In this document: piece after piece, positions 12,669-21,433 of the stretch
Position numbering within the stretch: position 1 is the first letter of the stretch
Layout of the letters: every line of letters begins with the position of its first letter
NCBI GenBank assembly: GCA_018303205.1
Contig: JAGVYP010000019.1
Coordinates: 1-49,809, forward strand
DNA: 49,809 nt
Direction: 5' to 3'
Origin: Candidatus Woesearchaeota archaeon
Lineage (GTDB): Archaea > Nanobdellota > Nanobdellia > Woesearchaeales > JAGWAF01
Notes under the pieces: generated by a model
The model's input: the letters and a program-made list of their open reading frames with translations, nothing else
Databases searched by the model: none
What the model was told of the DNA's origin: nothing
Position numbers and translations under genes: made by a program

Positions 12669-12879
12669 CCTTTCCATTCTTGTGAAACCTAACTCTTCCA
12701 AAACAGAAATTCTTGGCTGGGATGAAGAAAAGCAAGCTTTGAGAATTGCAATTCATGCTCCTCCTGAAGACAATAAAGCAAATAAAGAACTTCTAAAATT
12801 TCTGAAAAAAACATTGAAAAGAAAAGTTGAATTGATTAAAGGTAAAACTTCAAGAGAGAAAGTAGTTAGGATTTCTTAA
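12637..12879 (+). CDS. DUF167/YggU family protein
   Basis: An 80-residue small protein of the DUF167 (YggU) family. It matches in order: SILVKPNSSKTEIL, LRIAIHAPPEDNKANKELLKFL and the C-terminal KVELIKGKTSREKVVRI. The family has a compact alpha/beta fold and occurs in archaea and bacteria; its function is not established. The start region is duplicated 313 bases upstream, overlapping asnS, so the gene was probably coupled to asnS before the repeat insertion separated them. Its last 14 bases overlap the converging TrmB-type regulator. Confidence 0.88.
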   Translation: MSIEQYIKNNTLSILVKPNSSKTEILGWDEEKQALRIAIHAPPEDNKANKELLKFLKKTLKRKVELIKGKTSREKVVRIS

Positions 12880-13630
12880 ACGGTTTAGACTGTTTCCAGA
12901 ATGCATCAAAATAAGACTTAAACGAATCTGCTATTTCTTTATCAATGATTTCAATAACCATTTCTTTGCTTTGTAAGAAAATAGCAGTCACATCTTTATA
13001 ATTAAGAAACCATGATGGCGTTTCAATACCTGGTGGCATGTAACGTGCTTCAGAACCTTTGTAACTATTTCTATTTAACAAAGTAGAACGTGGAGTGCCA
13101 TGATTAAAAAGCATTTTGCATGTAATACCTGCTTTTGCTCTTCGAAGGTGATCTCTTTTCCAATAAAGGTCATATCTTTCTTCTTGATTTGTAGGGATTC
13201 CCCAGGAATAAAATTCTTCGCCTTTCTTTAATTTGAGATACGTGTGTTCTGCAACGGTTATTATTCCTTTGAATCCTTCATAGATTTGTGCTTCACTTGA
13301 TTTTTTTGCAGATTGTTTTTGCAATTGCAATTGAGGAATCAGTTCATTCATAGCTTTTCTTTGTTGTTCAAGTGTTTTTTCTTTTTGGTCTATATAGTCT
13401 TGAAATTTAATAGGATCTTCTGCTTGATAGTATTTTGTTTTCTGTTTGACGATGTAAGAAACAAGTCCTTTAGTGATGAGTCGTTCAACCACTTCATAGA
13501 TTTTTGATCTTGCTACTCCTGACTTTTCTGTTAAAGGTCCAGAAGTGGTTGAACCTAAATAAAGAAGGGCAAGATAAACTTTAGTTTCACTTTCAGTTAA
13601 TCCGATGTCTCGTAGTACGGAGTAATTCAT
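12866..13630 (-). CDS. TrmB-family transcriptional regulator
   Basis: A 254-residue archaeal regulator. The N-terminal winged helix (LRDIGLTESETKVYLALLYL, then SGVARSKIYEVVERLITKGL) is typical of TrmB. A coiled linker (about 85-110) leads to a C-terminal effector or dimer domain, with the conserved EAQIYEGFKGI and FYSWGIPTNQEERYDLYW. Many TrmB proteins sense sugars, but the short effector domain here lacks a clear sugar-binding signature. It is divergent from the HD-domain gene at 13725, with about 95 bases between starts, and so is a candidate regulator of it or of itself. A second TrmB-like gene is at 37117. Confidence 0.85.
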   Translation of the reverse strand: MNYSVLRDIGLTESETKVYLALLYLGSTTSGPLTEKSGVARSKIYEVVERLITKGLVSYIVKQKTKYYQAEDPIKFQDYIDQKEKTLEQQRKAMNELIPQLQLQKQSAKKSSEAQIYEGFKGIITVAEHTYLKLKKGEEFYSWGIPTNQEERYDLYWKRDHLRRAKAGITCKMLFNHGTPRSTLLNRNSYKGSEARYMPPGIETPSWFLNYKDVTAIFLQSKEMVIEIIDKEIADSFKSYFDAFWKQSKPFKKS

Positions 13631-13695
13631 AGCATTACAAGAAGGAGCTTCTATATAAAACTAAGTATTGCTTAACCCTATAGGGGGAGGCGATC

Positions 13696-13703
13696 TTTAT
13701 TTA
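13696..13703 (+). promoter_or_regulatory. TATA box of the HD-domain gene
   Basis: TTTATTTA centred 25.5 bases before ATG 13725, which places the start there and not at the upstream in-frame codon. Confidence 0.55.
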
Positions 13704-13724
13704 TTTCCTATACTATACTCTGTT

Positions 13725-14789
13725 ATGGCTATTACAGAAAATGCTCGAATTACTGGTGCCCATTATACAGAAGCTAAAAAATCAGCGTGTATATTGTTAG
13801 ATCAATTAGGTAAATCATTAATCTATCATAGAAAAGCGCATACTACAGATTTTGTTGTACCTGCAGCATTAGCAATTGCAGAAAGAGAAGGATTTTCTTT
13901 AGAAGATAAATTAATTGTTAGTATTGCGGCTGCATTTCATGATACTGGTTTTGTTAGACAATATAATGCAAATGAGTCTATTGGTGCTCAATTTGCTGAA
14001 GATTATATGAGATCTTCTATGCAAGAGTATACAGAAGAGCAAATCAGATTAGTAAAAGATGCAATCATAAATACAGATATGAAAGAAGTACCTAAAACAA
14101 AATATGAAAAAGTGTTAAGAGACGCTGATTTAGCGATTTTAGGACATCATGATTTTGTTCAATGGAATAATGATTTAAGGAGAGAATGTAAATTACATCC
14201 TGAATCGCCTATGCATCAAGCTTCTTTGGATAGATCAAAATGGGCTCAATCACAATTAGGATTTATTTCATCTCATACGTGGTTTACAGAGGGTGCGAAA
14301 ACATTGTACGAAGAGTCTAAACAACAAAATATTCTTGCTTTCAAAAAGGAGTATCCATTGACACAACAATACGCAGTATTTGTAAGAAGTAAAAATTGTG
14401 ATGATAGTTCGGACATTGTCCTTCTCGTTCTAAGATTATCTGAAAGAGATTTGTCTAGTGCAGATTTTTTTCCAAAGGATGACGCGCAAAGATCTGAAGG
14501 GGGATATCCGCAAAAGATATGGCGATTTGATAGTCTTGAAGACGCAAAACGTAAAGCTGAAGAAACAGCTGATGGTAATTTTGTTCTTGAAGCGGGGGTT
14601 GTACCGATAGATACCGGAGAGCATCGTTATGTCGCCATGAGTCAAGAAATTTGTATGGGAGATCCAGTTTATGCTGTAAAAGTTGTAAGAACTCTTAGAG
14701 AAATAAGAAATTATGATAGAAAGAATTGGAAAGAAACATTGGAAGAGACATGCAAAAGAGATGAGCATTGGAAGCATATAAGCATATAG
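13725..14789 (+). CDS. HD-domain phosphohydrolase with C-terminal extension
   Basis: A 354-residue two-part protein. Residues 1-200 form an HD metal-dependent phosphohydrolase: H35/H39 in IYHRKAHTTDF, H72-D73 in AAFHDTGFVRQY, and DADLAILGHHDF later. The layout resembles small HD proteins acting on nucleotides or as signalling phosphodiesterases. Residues 225-350 are an extra alpha/beta region (QYAVFVRSKNCDDSSDIVLL) that I do not recognise and that may be sensory. The start is set by a TATA box 25.5 bases upstream. The TrmB-type regulator lies divergently next to it. Its place at the edge of the accessory stretch suggests a regulatory or defence-related role, which is speculative. Confidence 0.75.
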   Translation: MAITENARITGAHYTEAKKSACILLDQLGKSLIYHRKAHTTDFVVPAALAIAEREGFSLEDKLIVSIAAAFHDTGFVRQYNANESIGAQFAEDYMRSSMQEYTEEQIRLVKDAIINTDMKEVPKTKYEKVLRDADLAILGHHDFVQWNNDLRRECKLHPESPMHQASLDRSKWAQSQLGFISSHTWFTEGAKTLYEESKQQNILAFKKEYPLTQQYAVFVRSKNCDDSSDIVLLVLRLSERDLSSADFFPKDDAQRSEGGYPQKIWRFDSLEDAKRKAEETADGNFVLEAGVVPIDTGEHRYVAMSQEICMGDPVYAVKVVRTLREIRNYDRKNWKETLEETCKRDEHWKHISI

Positions 14790-16272: not shown

Positions 16273-16294
16273 TAGCTCTAAATTAAAAAAAGAG

Positions 16295-16798
16295 TTAGTC
16301 ACTTAAATCGTACTGTTCTAAGTCATAGAATTCTAATTTGTGAACTTTTAAGACTAGGATCCCTTCCCAATCAGCGATAATATGGCTAAATTTTTGCCTA
16401 ATCTCTGTTGATATTTTTTCGAATTCAGGCGCGTTTTTGGCGATAAAGACACAGGTAATATCTGTATTTCCTACAGTTGAAAATAAATCAATAACTCTTG
16501 GATGATTTTTTAAATGATTGATAAATTGATTTTTTGCATCTTCAGTGATGTTTTGTAATTTAATTTTGATGTCAAGAGTGAGTGGAAAACCTATCGCTTT
16601 AGGATCGATAGCTGTCCAAAACTCAAATATTTTTTTCCTCTGCATTTCTTTAATACGTTTGTTGACAGAATCGATAGAAAGATGGACTTGTTTTGCAATA
16701 TGGGTAAGGCTTTCGCGAGCGTTTTTCTGCAGAATCATAAGGATTTGCCTATCTTTTTCATCTAAAATTCTCGATTTTAAAGCGCTTTCATAAGGCAT
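16295..16798 (-). CDS. Lrp/AsnC-family transcriptional regulator
   Basis: A 167-residue regulator. The N-terminal helix-turn-helix (LDEKDRQILMILQKNARESL, then ITHIAKQVHLSIDSVNKRIK with IKEMQRKKIF) is classic Lrp/AsnC. The C-terminal RAM-like ligand/oligomer domain runs over about 70-160 (VIDLFSTVGNTDITCVFIAK). Such proteins bind palindromic AT-rich operators and respond to amino acids. The gene is divergent from the deacetylase-like operon, and the 95 bases between hold an 11-bp-arm palindrome overlapping its own TATA region. Control of both itself and the operon is therefore likely, though inferred. Confidence 0.9.
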   Translation of the reverse strand: MPYESALKSRILDEKDRQILMILQKNARESLTHIAKQVHLSIDSVNKRIKEMQRKKIFEFWTAIDPKAIGFPLTLDIKIKLQNITEDAKNQFINHLKNHPRVIDLFSTVGNTDITCVFIAKNAPEFEKISTEIRQKFSHIIADWEGILVLKVHKLEFYDLEQYDLSD

Positions 16799-16829
16799 GT
16801 TAGTAGATAAAATAGGATTAATATTTAAA

Positions 16830-16852
16830 TATATCTTAAATTTTAAGATATA
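16830..16852. promoter_or_regulatory. palindromic operator, probable Lrp-type site
   Basis: TATATCTTAAA and its exact complement TTTAAGATATA are separated by one base. The site lies between the Lrp-type gene and the divergent operon, next to a TATTTAAATA promoter element. A perfect 11-bp-arm palindrome of this sort is what a dimeric Lrp/AsnC regulator would recognise. Confidence 0.7.
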
Positions 16853-16893
16853 ATATGAATAATACTTAATAAATTATCTTATATAAGAGTTAT

Positions 16894-18111
16894 ATGGAAA
16901 ATGCGCTTATGGAAAATTTAGCAGCCTATGCTGCCAAGCAACAAACTATCACGATAGAAGATCTGAGAAGTATGAGTAGTGATACCGGAAAAGTTTTTTT
17001 CAAAGCATTTTGCAGTTTTTTAGCAGGAAAATATCCGGAAAAAGATGATACGATAGTGGAAGGCATCCTCAACATAAAATCGCATGGACAGGGTATTCAT
17101 ATTCCGGAAACAGTAAAACGGAAAGGAATAGCGGCATTTCCCAAAGGGTATCTTGAAGAAAATCAAATGCCAGTACATGAAAATCTTGCTCAGGTAAAGA
17201 TACTACATAACGAAAAAGCATTTCCTATTGAAACCTTTTTTTCAAGAACAACAAGAAATATTTTATTATACGCAAAAGAGAAAGGAGCAAACTGTATATC
17301 AAAATCATATAGGATGGATAAACAAGTAAAAGAAATACATTCTACCATCGATTTTCTAAAATTATTTGAAAGAAGAACAAAACAACTAGAGCATATAAGA
17401 AAATTGGATGATAAAGAAGTACCGTTATTTCCTGAGATTATTACATTCGCCTTAGAAGCTCCCTCAGTTTTATTTGAAGCTGAAAAACAAAAAGAACAAT
17501 TGGTTATTGCATTGCCAGGAACATTAGGAAATCATGCTGAAAAAGATCATGAGCAAGTATTTTGTTATTTTAACAACGAAGCAATTTTTGCAAATGAAAT
17601 GATAAAAAAAGGAAAGAAGATAACCATTCTTGATATTGATGCCAGTTTTGGCAATGGAACATATCATCTTCTTTTAGGAAAACAAAATATAACTTTGATG
17701 GGGATACAAGTAAATCCTGAGGTAGATCCTACTCTTTATGAAAGAGATGCTCTAACACAGAAAAATAGTTTTCAACATAACCTTGAATTAGGAACAAACG
17801 GTAAAACCTATCTTGAAGTATTGAAAGAAGCGCTAAAAAAAATACCTGAACATACTGATATTCTTCTTATTACGGGAGGAGTGAATCAATATCTTTATGA
17901 TAGTTGTGGATTGTTATGCGTAGAAGCACAGTATTTTGAGAAAATAGGAAAAGCAATTGCTGAAGCAGCAAAAGATATTCCAAAAATCATTCTTACGCAA
18001 GCAGGAGGTTTTGAAAAAGATTCTCATATTCTTTTCCTTGATCTTGCATCAGGAATACAAAAAAACTTAGGAGGTAAACAAACATGGCATACGAACAAAG
18101 CCCAGAAATAA
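16894..18111 (+). CDS. histone-deacetylase-fold protein with replaced catalytic residues
   Basis: A 405-residue protein whose second half (about 185-395) follows the arginase/deacetylase fold in order: LPGTLGNHAEKD (usual PGHHA), VFCYFNNEAIFA (usual GFCYFNN), ITILDIDASFGNGTYHL (usual DxDxHHGNGT), HNLELGTNGKTYLEVL (usual NLPL-GxxDxxYL), TGGVNQYL (usual GFDAH) and TQAGGFEK (usual EGGY). Zinc and catalytic positions are altered: His-His becomes N213-H214, the metal His becomes S251, the second Asp becomes N331 and the Tyr becomes F373; D249 remains. It should not work as a normal zinc deacetylase. Residues 1-180 are unfamiliar. A TATATAA box centred near 16882 would fit a leaderless start at the second Met (16909) better than 16894. 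Confidence 0.75.
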   Translation: MENALMENLAAYAAKQQTITIEDLRSMSSDTGKVFFKAFCSFLAGKYPEKDDTIVEGILNIKSHGQGIHIPETVKRKGIAAFPKGYLEENQMPVHENLAQVKILHNEKAFPIETFFSRTTRNILLYAKEKGANCISKSYRMDKQVKEIHSTIDFLKLFERRTKQLEHIRKLDDKEVPLFPEIITFALEAPSVLFEAEKQKEQLVIALPGTLGNHAEKDHEQVFCYFNNEAIFANEMIKKGKKITILDIDASFGNGTYHLLLGKQNITLMGIQVNPEVDPTLYERDALTQKNSFQHNLELGTNGKTYLEVLKEALKKIPEHTDILLITGGVNQYLYDSCGLLCVEAQYFEKIGKAIAEAAKDIPKIILTQAGGFEKDSHILFLDLASGIQKNLGGKQTWHTNKAQK

Positions 18112-18497
18112 AGAGTTATTTGCAAATAAACAAAGTAGGAAAAGCACTCGAGTATCAGACAACAAGGGGTGCATTAAGACCAAGAGTTGTAAGTCCATTG
18201 CAAGCAAACCAGAACTATGGTGAAGCAGTAGAATATGTAGAACAAAGACTGGCTGAACTAAGGAGAGCGTACAAAGAACAAGTGCCTGGCAAAGATGCAG
18301 TGCAGTATGGAGTTTGGCAAAGTATACAAAGCGTTGTGAAGGCATACACAGAAAAGGAACCAGATACCTACGAAAAAGCAAGAGAAGCATTGGCAAAAAT
18401 AAAAGAAGATTTGGGTAAGAATGATGCACTTTCATTACAAGTAGGAAAACAAGTTGGTTTTGTCATAGAAAGAGAAGAAGATTGTGTTGGATTTTGA
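18084..18497 (+). CDS. small helical protein, unknown
   Basis: A 137-residue mostly helical protein, with segments such as NYGEAVEYVEQRLAELRRAY and KAREALAKIKEDLGKND. No family is recognised. It overlaps the 3' end of the deacetylase-like gene by 28 bases and has a strong SD, GGAGGT, 9 bases before its ATG, so it is translationally linked to it. The NAD-synthetase-like gene begins 5 bases after its stop. Being tightly packed between two repurposed-enzyme genes, it may be an adaptor or subunit of a complex. Codon use is somewhat more GC-rich than in nearby genes. Confidence 0.7.
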   Translation: MAYEQSPEIKSYLQINKVGKALEYQTTRGALRPRVVSPLQANQNYGEAVEYVEQRLAELRRAYKEQVPGKDAVQYGVWQSIQSVVKAYTEKEPDTYEKAREALAKIKEDLGKNDALSLQVGKQVGFVIEREEDCVGF

Positions 18498-18502
18498 TAA
18501 AA

Positions 18503-19351
18503 ATGAGTGAGTACAGCAGAAAAATTACAGAAAATGTAGTGCAAACCTTGAAAGACAGTTTAGCACCCAGATTAGCTACAGGATATTATGTCATGTTAAG
18601 TGCTGGACCGGGAGTTGGTAACACAGGAGCTCCTGGAATGTCCAGCGCTGTGGCTCTGAGATTATGTGTAGAAGCTGTTGGCCCAGAATATGTAAAAGCA
18701 GTTACGTTTACTCTTGATGGATATACCAGACCTGATTGGGTTGCGAAAGCAGGAGCATATGCTCATCAGCTTGGTGTTCTCTGGGAAACCGTGGATATGA
18801 CAAAAGCAATACAGCCGTATGCAAAACAAATGGAAATGCATCCTGCATCTGCTGCAACCAGTTTTAGATCACTTTTTGCAAAAGATCTTGCACACAAATT
18901 AGGATATCTTTCTGTAGCAGGTTATACGCTCATTTCTAGCGCATTTTATGCAGTAGATCAGATTAATGACGCTGCAAGAGTAGCCCCTGTTGGGAATTTT
19001 GATAGGTCAACGACGATTGCAATAGGAAAAGCATTGGGAATTGATGGAAATATTCTTTATCAAAGACCAAGCAATGGTGCAATTGAAGAAGGAAACAGGA
19101 CGATGAGCCGCATTTTTACAAAGCATCATGAATGGAATTTAGATTTATCAAGAATACTCGACCAATTTCTTTTAAATTTGCAATCAGGAAAACCTGTTTT
19201 GGAAGGAATAGCAGAAAGTGATGATGAGAAAATAAAAATTGCAGCAAGAAATGCTGAACAAGCATATCATACTTTAAAGGGGCAACTTGAAGTGATCATG
19301 GGAGAAAATGCTACTCACGAAGAAAGACAAATTTTTCTTTTTGAATCTTAA
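18503..19351 (+). CDS. NAD synthetase-like protein with altered PP-loop
   Basis: A 282-residue protein resembling the NadE/ATP-pyrophosphatase fold. VMLSAGPGVGNTGAPGMSS (residues 30-48) aligns with the PP-loop strand, but the standard SGGxDS is disrupted by an insertion; ALRLCVEAVGPEYVKAVTF continues the alpha/beta pattern. Later, APVGNFDRSTTIAIGKALGI and NILYQRPSNGAI match the NadE region that reads PxxDLxKTQVxxLAxxLG and IxxxPS. The GTGNKSE segment is lost. Catalysis is uncertain, and it may bind NAD or an adenylate instead. It is third in the operon with the altered deacetylase-fold protein. Its stop overlaps the converging zinc-protein gene by 4 bases. ATG 18503 is chosen over an in-frame codon inside the previous gene. 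Confidence 0.6.
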   Translation: MSEYSRKITENVVQTLKDSLAPRLATGYYVMLSAGPGVGNTGAPGMSSAVALRLCVEAVGPEYVKAVTFTLDGYTRPDWVAKAGAYAHQLGVLWETVDMTKAIQPYAKQMEMHPASAATSFRSLFAKDLAHKLGYLSVAGYTLISSAFYAVDQINDAARVAPVGNFDRSTTIAIGKALGIDGNILYQRPSNGAIEEGNRTMSRIFTKHHEWNLDLSRILDQFLLNLQSGKPVLEGIAESDDEKIKIAARNAEQAYHTLKGQLEVIMGENATHEERQIFLFES

Positions 19352-19704
19352 TTAAAGTATCTTGGATCATCTGACCTAATAGTTATTTCTGTCGGGTTTT
19401 TTCTTTTTTGGATAATGTTTTCAGGACTTTTATTTTCATTTTTTCCGTTCAGATTAATAACATTGTTGATTTCAAAGATTTTCTTTGCATTCACATTTCC
19501 GCAAGACAAACAAGAAAAATAAACACCCCATTTTCCTGTCTTGAGATCAGCAAATTTTCCACAAACGCATTTCATTTCTCCGAGAAGAGCAGAAATATGG
19601 TTTCTACAAACAATTAAGCCTTGTTTGTTGAATGTTATTGCTTGCTGATCGCAAAAAGGACATTTTTCAACCTTGCTCTTTCCGTATTTTTTTGGGATGA
19701 ACAT
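19348..19704 (-). CDS. zinc-ribbon protein, unknown
   Basis: A 118-residue protein with three probable metal sites: CPFC followed by CRNH (residues 16-36), CVCG (near 46) and CLSCGN (near 66). These look like two treble-clef or ribbon zinc fingers. The C-terminal 45 residues are polar and likely disordered (NGKNENKSPENIIQKRK). Such proteins often bind nucleic acid, but nothing in the sequence names a function. It converges with the NAD-synthetase-like gene (4-base overlap) and lies 21 bases downstream of the EamA gene on the same strand. It could be a small archaeal transcription- or RNA-associated factor. Confidence 0.6.
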   Translation of the reverse strand: MFIPKKYGKSKVEKCPFCDQQAITFNKQGLIVCRNHISALLGEMKCVCGKFADLKTGKWGVYFSCLSCGNVNAKKIFEINNVINLNGKNENKSPENIIQKRKNPTEITIRSDDPRYFN

Positions 19705-20692: not shown

Positions 20693-21433
20693 TTAAAATC
20701 CCCCTAGTGTTTTCTGTTTTGCATCAAAGCGTTCTAGATACTTAGGAGGCTTTACTGCGACAAAGCTAAAGCCTTCTTGGAGTAAAAGAGCTTCTGCGTT
20801 TGAACTTATTTCAGGAGCAGCAAGAATGCCCCTCACAAAAGAGATTCCTTTTGCTTGCTTGATTTTCTCAACATATCTTTTTAATTGCTCAACTGCTTTG
20901 AAATCTGCAGTATACCGTTTACATTCAACAACAACGAGATTATTATTTTTATCATAACCAAAAAGGTCGATAAAACCAAATTGGGTTTGTTCTTCCATGC
21001 TTAAGGGTTTAAATCCCATTTCAAGCATTTCAGGCTGTTCAAAAAGCATTTGTGCCATATCCTTTTCTGTTCCACTCAAGGCTATCTTTTGACCATCTTC
21101 AAGATATTTATTTTCAAAAAAATGAACTCCTTGAATTTCAATATCCATGTACTCCTTATGTTCAAGATTGCGAGAACGCAAGAAGTATTTTCCTTCATCA
21201 AAGGTAATGCTATGACTGCTTCCTGGCTTCATATAATTCACAGGAACATTACCTGTAGGCTGATGCACCAAAAGAGTATGATCTGCTTTAAGAATAATAA
21301 GACGCTCTCCAAAGGGAAGAAAGCTTTCTGCTCTTCCGCTATACAGCACAGAACAGGTACAACCTATAACAACAACTTCATTTTTCTTTAATGCATTCTG
21401 TAAGAGCCGTGCATAATCACTCAGTTCAAGCAT
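20693..21433 (-). CDS. nucS: endonuclease NucS
   Basis: A 246-residue nuclease of the NucS/EndoMS family, which cuts branched or mismatched DNA and in many archaea replaces MutS-MutL repair. The N-terminal DNA-binding half has IGCTCSVLYSGRAESFL. The C-terminal RecB-like half carries the catalytic set GFIDLFGYDKNNNLVVVECK (Asp, then ExK) and a following QLKRYVEKI. The last seven residues, QKTLGGF, fit the PCNA-binding PIP box (QxxLxxF), as described for archaeal NucS. It looks complete. A truncated family-2 repeat lies upstream. Confidence 0.92.
   Translation of the reverse strand: MLELSDYARLLQNALKKNEVVVIGCTCSVLYSGRAESFLPFGERLIILKADHTLLVHQPTGNVPVNYMKPGSSHSITFDEGKYFLRSRNLEHKEYMDIEIQGVHFFENKYLEDGQKIALSGTEKDMAQMLFEQPEMLEMGFKPLSMEEQTQFGFIDLFGYDKNNNLVVVECKRYTADFKAVEQLKRYVEKIKQAKGISFVRGILAAPEISSNAEALLLQEGFSFVAVKPPKYLERFDAKQKTLGGF

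Follow-up and report, generated by a model that had tools for sequence, protein, structure and literature searches.

What could be done by an archaeal gene block that encodes a protein with a histone deacetylase (HDAC) fold, a small protein, an NAD synthetase (NadE)-like protein, and a divergently oriented Lrp/AsnC-family regulator, when the active sites of both enzyme folds have been changed? The question was raised by the window, i.e., the whole stretch of DNA analyzed, which comprises 49,809 nucleotides (contig JAGVYP010000019.1) from a Candidatus Woesearchaeota archaeon. A sequence-only reading had described the first three genes as an operon at positions 16894-19351, and an ORF check found the open reading frames at these positions. 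The answer that we tentatively prefer is that of a transferable accessory module working by binding, and the evidence for its parts is given below.

Two enzyme folds with altered active sites

The first protein of the operon (16894-18111, plus strand, 405 aa) was assigned to Pfam PF00850 (Hist_deacetyl) with an E-value of 2.8e-23 and 83 bits, against a cut-off of 27.9. Comparison with nine archaeal HDACs by hhalign gave a probability of 98.9 and an E-value of 2.4e-17, and the best solved-chain match found by phmmer was 9gz5, the HDAC11 of Leptospira interrogans (E 7.6e-12). The AlphaFold2 model had a pLDDT of 76 and a pTM of 0.76, with high confidence for most of the residues 100-395 and uncertainty for residues 1-95; these correspond to the deacetylase fold (about 100-395) and to an N-terminal extension (1-95), respectively. 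When this model was compared by Foldseek, the displayed matches were all deacetylases or acetylpolyamine hydrolases, with E-values down to 6e-17, and the nearest fold match was an acetylpolyamine amidohydrolase (9gkz). The histone deacetylase fold that had been called from the letters was recovered by Pfam, by profile-profile comparison, and by structure prediction with Foldseek.

Four replacements at catalytic positions, previously proposed from the sequence, were also seen when relatives were aligned. N213 (17530-17532) stands in place of the first catalytic His of GHHA, S251 (17644-17646) in place of the zinc-ligand His of DxDxH, N331 (17884-17886) in place of the zinc-ligand Asp, and F373 (18010-18012) in place of the transition-state Tyr of GGY, all on the plus strand. 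The canonical H, H, D, and Y were retained in 15 archaeal relatives, in 27 further archaeal ones (with a single gap in the alignment, immediately preceding the first His), and in 29 viral ones (with one gap at the D331 position). Since the relatives keep the canonical residues and the orthologue in a second carrier genome shows the identical four replacements, these are not an alignment accident. Thus, the His-His pair and the Tyr are now N213-H214 and F373, and from the Asp-His-Asp set of zinc ligands, D249 is present, while the His and the second Asp have become S251 and N331. When compared to the classical zinc-dependent deacylases (PF00850), the protein has the same fold, motif order, second His (H214), and DxD Asp pair (D247 and D249), but differs at the first His, the zinc-ligand His and Asp, and the Tyr, and adds an N-terminal extension of about 95 residues. 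In the parts of two articles on the family consulted here (PMC11532494, PMC13325672), bacterial and class IV HDAC members have conserved sites, and no pseudoenzyme like this protein is described. No second HDAC gene was found in the source genome (1.42 Mb, 85% complete). The closest canonical relative by score (83 bits; L208 of genome G279) has complete catalytic residues and comes from a 0.6-Mb genome, and in five other genomes, the genes next to canonical HDAC relatives were unrelated. A phage HDAC with 27% identity was judged to be an ordinary relative.

The third operon gene (18503-19351, plus strand) encodes 282 aa when read from the ATG. The ORF list starts the gene at a TTG (18482), by which the protein would gain seven residues; this start is possible, but identity with the orthologue sets in only at the ATG at 18503, which is, therefore, preferred. 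The product matched Pfam PF02540 (NAD_synthase) with 24 bits against a cut-off of 21, and hhalign gave a probability of 97.8 and an E-value of 7e-13. Foldseek connected its model to NMN/NAD synthetases at an E-value of 1e-11, a result that is not fully independent, as the alignment behind the model was NadE-rich. The NadE assignment, which agrees with the sequence-only reading, is weaker than the HDAC assignment, yet real; the gene is also under selection, as shown below. With the NH3-dependent NAD synthetase NadE (PDB 3fiu, 2e18, 1xng), the protein shares the alpha/beta core, from about residue 5 to residue 197, and the PSNG/PSAG region, and it resembles the C-terminal part weakly. The PP-loop SGGxDS is replaced by a remodelled glycine-rich loop, SAGPGVGNTGAPGMSS (18599-18646, plus strand), which aligns as S-A-GPGVGNT-GAPGMSS and contains a 10-residue insertion, whereas SGG(I/L/V)DS was retained by ten archaeal relatives chosen without regard to the motif. 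In a second alignment, the relatives were picked by the SGGxDS pattern, so the conservation of the loop there is circular. The GTxNKSE segment is also missing, as had been noticed from the sequence. At the catalytic and substrate positions of GTxNKSE, GDGG-D, and TDE, S replaces E145, T replaces N142, N replaces D155, and D200-E201 have become T/I-M; K168 is changed as well. Most of the near-invariant NadE positions are, in this way, gone, and on sequence grounds, ATP-dependent NAD synthesis by this protein is very unlikely. According to the alignments, both the HDAC-fold and the NadE-fold proteins lack the residues that their families need for catalysis.

The source genome contains one more weak PF02540 match, in a 601-aa frame. 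A NadE-like protein of genome G163 (L032) was evaluated as an intermediate; it keeps SGGVDS, lacks GTGNKSE, and has no HDAC-like neighbor, and it was set aside as a different system. In that genome, the remodelled NadE gene (L032/L039:9298-10152) adjoins a TrmB-type regulator.

A small orphan protein and a shared promoter region

Between the two enzyme-like genes lies the gene for a small protein of 137 aa (18084-18497, plus strand), which found no match in Pfam, NCBIfam, or the PDB. Among the genomes sampled, homologues were found only in the two carriers, and no orthologue was found in the viral contigs or phages searched. A weak match to a PHROG group of unknown function (0.002) and a weak PADLOC match to RmrT (0.016) were obtained. 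A ribosome-binding site, GGAGG (18070-18074, plus strand), is located within the end of the HDAC-like gene, and AGGAGG is found at an equal distance upstream of the small gene in the second carrier. The small gene and the HDAC-like gene overlap by 28 bp in the source genome and by 4 bp in the second carrier, and this overlap, along with the conserved ribosome-binding site, would fit coupled translation of the small gene.

The regulator gene (16295-16798, minus strand, 167 aa) is divergent from the operon, and has an orthologue in the second carrier. Its product contains an HTH_AsnC domain (2.8e-13, above the cut-off), and its match to the AsnC (RAM) ligand-binding domain reached 22.2 bits, under the Pfam cut-off of 25. 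Both transcription units share a 95-bp divergent promoter region (16799-16893) in which three elements were distinguished: a putative TATA box of the regulator gene, TTTAAATA (16824-16831, minus strand), about 26-33 bp from the ATG; a perfect 11-1-11 palindrome, TATATCTTAAA-T-TTTAAGATATA (16830-16852), the putative Lrp operator; and a putative operon TATA box, CTTAATAAA (16865-16873, plus strand), about 25 bp before the ATG. When the two genera were compared, the surroundings of the palindrome and the two TATA-like stretches were conserved and the remainder of the region had diverged; in the second carrier, the palindrome keeps its core but differs by a single substitution in an arm and by a base at its end. 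CTTAATAAA occurs once in the window and once in the contig of the second carrier. About 21-33 bp separate the two TATA-like stretches from the start codons, a spacing that would suit leaderless transcripts.

The window contains no second perfect 11-1-11 palindrome, and no other copy of the core of this one was found in the source genome with up to three mismatches (control 0); the Lrp protein is, therefore, apparently a local regulator. The palindrome overlaps the TATA box of the regulator gene and ends 12 bp before the operon TATA box, leaving space for a BRE. The binding sites of archaeal Lrp activators are located just upstream of the BRE, and amino acids and other metabolites are the effectors of archaeal Lrp regulators (PMC2995911). 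Because the palindrome overlaps the one TATA box and stops a few bases short of the predicted BRE/TATA of the operon, as with those activators, autorepression combined with operon activation by the Lrp protein would be the likeliest wiring by analogy. With Ptr2, Ss-LrpB, and LrpA, which are autorepressors and activators, this regulator shares the HTH_AsnC domain, the divergent gene, and a palindrome near the TATA/BRE; unlike them, its ligand domain is under the Pfam cut-off and it has one site genome-wide.

The block in a second genus

The second carrier is Woesearchaeota RIFCSPHIGHO2_02_FULL_39_9 (contig JAGWAF010000015.1; genome G002), whose genus differs from that of the source archaeon but lies within its family. 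It carries all four genes, in unchanged order and orientation. Nucleotide homology to this contig extends from 16285 to 19352 in the window (3,106 aligned positions, 80.9% identical), and ends at the stop codons of the outer genes of the block. Protein identity was 91% for Lrp, 81% for the HDAC-like protein, 68% for the small protein, and 80% for the NadE-like protein, with dN/dS values of 0.06-0.07, 0.11, 0.27, and 0.16, respectively, and all four genes are under purifying selection. Neither of the two findings that would have refuted the sequence-only reading was made, as both folds were matched and the genes are together in the only other genome in which the block was found. The small protein and the divergent Lrp regulator form one unit with the two remodelled enzymes, as that reading had it. 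Wide conservation of the neighborhood across DPANN genomes, one of the checks it had put forward, was not observed: the unit was seen in only two of the sampled genomes, and its position relative to the neighbors differs.

In the second carrier, the block is flanked by PCNA and ABC-transporter genes. Another contig of the source genome (C23) carries RNase-J-like, PCNA, and ABC genes arranged in the same way, with the block absent, and the counterpart of the block's site in the source genome falls at a contig end in the second carrier. Both genera, therefore, have the four genes linked in a unit of about 3.1 kb, but the sites that it occupies are non-orthologous. The pS values were 0.46-0.54 for the block genes versus 0.71-0.90 for ten neighboring genes, and the divergence at fourfold sites was 121/285 in the block versus 382/587 in the same ten genes (Fisher p 2.8e-10, an indicative value, since sites inside one gene are not independent). 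Because the synonymous divergence is below that of the neighbors and the sites are non-orthologous, transfer as a unit is the simplest reading, and the block probably moved between lineages in this form; against this, constraint could partly explain the lower synonymous divergence. An origin by vertical inheritance, with relocation in one genome and slower synonymous change, is possible though doubtful, and would be compatible with any of the functional readings discussed below. Both carriers belong to one family, of which only two other genomes were sampled, both without the block at 88-89% completeness, as vertical descent would allow; however, it would have to account for four genes, including the fast-evolving one for the small protein, with synonymous divergence under that of ten neighboring genes.

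Neither an integrase nor a transposase gene was seen inside the block, and no terminal repeats were seen by eye at its edges. Whole-collection scans for the HDAC-like protein returned only the contig of the second carrier, using short exact peptide patterns by which distant members may be missed. No orthologue of the NadE-like protein was found in the viral contigs, phages, and plasmids searched, and none of the HDAC-like protein in the viral contigs searched. With two carriers, the sample is too small for protein covariation.

Other genes near the block were also inspected. In the second carrier, the cassette is directly followed by a gene for a protein of 207 aa that matches no known family (L027:14172-14795). 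The possibility of its being a fifth member was rejected, as it is absent from the source genome and present in genome G037, where no HDAC-like match was listed. The protein is 48% identical to its G037 counterpart, and on visual inspection alone, its C-terminus, 'DINPVNVKF...LVITDL', resembles the catalytic loop of kinases. Contig C23 of the source genome has in the corresponding slot, six bases after PCNA, a 181-aa ORF (L237:1839-2384) unrelated to the 207-aa protein. Within the window, a NucS endonuclease gene (20693-21433) lies beside one for a 118-aa Cys-rich protein (19348-19704), a pair conserved in the second carrier, and a gene for a weak HD-domain protein, under the Pfam cut-off (13668-14789), is divergent from one for a TrmB-type regulator (12866-13630).

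Possible functions of the cassette

As both folds are maintained by selection despite the changes in their active sites, binding is the most likely mode of action of the products, and a complex is suggested because the operon genes overlap or lie close together. Our preferred explanation, held with something short of even confidence, is a transferable, self-regulated accessory cassette whose products form a complex that is inactive as a deacetylase or NAD synthetase and works by binding. The Lrp protein would bind the palindrome and repress its own gene, and would activate or switch the operon, like the archaeal Lrp activators. The three operon products might then assemble into one complex, acting by binding instead of deacetylation or NAD synthesis, in which small ligands could be held in the altered pocket of the HDAC-like protein and at the remodelled loop, rich in glycine, of the NadE-like protein. 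The first candidates, guessed from the folds, would be an acyl-amine-like ligand and a nucleotide- or carboxylate-like one, and whether these sites are occupied may control a partner, for which the Lrp protein is itself a candidate.

The retention of H214, D247, and D249 weighs against this explanation, as it is compatible with other hydrolytic or weak metal-dependent chemistry. The same residues favor a rather unlikely alternative, in which each protein has been neofunctionalized for a different reaction and the two make up a short pathway that acts on an unusual amine or amide and is switched on by its substrate via the Lrp protein; the response of archaeal Lrp regulators to amino acids and metabolites (PMC2995911) and the strong purifying selection over both proteins would also suit it. 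Metal-free amide or ester hydrolysis via H214/D247 and a non-ATP transfer in the NadE fold would be examples of such reactions. However, two of the three zinc ligands and the Tyr are gone, the NadE site is without its PP-loop and most near-invariant positions, and, although a change in one member of a pathway is common, that both should be without the known catalytic residues is less expected. Decay of a former deacetylase and NAD synthetase is highly improbable: the catalytic residues are lost and the genome is small, but the frames are intact in two genera, the active-site substitutions are identical in both, the operator is conserved, and on the dN/dS values of 0.06-0.27, pseudogene decay was rejected.

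Another reading is that the block serves in defence or counter-defence or as a toxin-antitoxin cassette: an NAD- or nucleotide-related signal would be sensed or occupied by the pseudoenzymes, which would then set off or prevent a toxic outcome. This would agree with the patchy presence, the differing location, and the apparent transfer of the block, and the single palindrome suits autoregulation. We consider it quite improbable, as PADLOC matched neither the HDAC-like nor the NadE-like protein and linked the Lrp protein only to generic winged helices, the operon contains no nuclease, membrane, or NADase domain, and no defence-island neighbors were noticed.

Returning to the binding cassette, a more specific version, to which we give clearly less credence, is that one enzyme fold of acyl-lysine/polyamine metabolism and one of NAD metabolism were turned into non-catalytic binding subunits of a single complex that senses the metabolite state and signals to a dedicated Lrp-type switch, the whole spreading among DPANN archaea as a self-regulated cassette. 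Taken singly, the parts of the block are variants of known families, and the combination is unmatched: as the sequence-only reading had suspected, the four genes as a system found no counterpart in Pfam, NCBIfam, PADLOC, PHROGs, or the literature searched. The loss of catalytic residues from both folds under strong selection, in a unit with its own switch, suggests a regulatory or binding module that has not been described.

No prokaryotic pseudoenzymes of the deacetylase or NadE fold were found in a non-exhaustive survey of the open-access literature, and such proteins are hardly documented in prokaryotes. The paired case described here offers a compact system with four genes, one operator, and two predicted ligand pockets. 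It also carries a warning, as family-based automatic annotation would attach the names 'histone deacetylase' and 'NAD synthase' to them. If the binding explanation is true, small-genome archaea would reuse metabolic enzymes as regulators.
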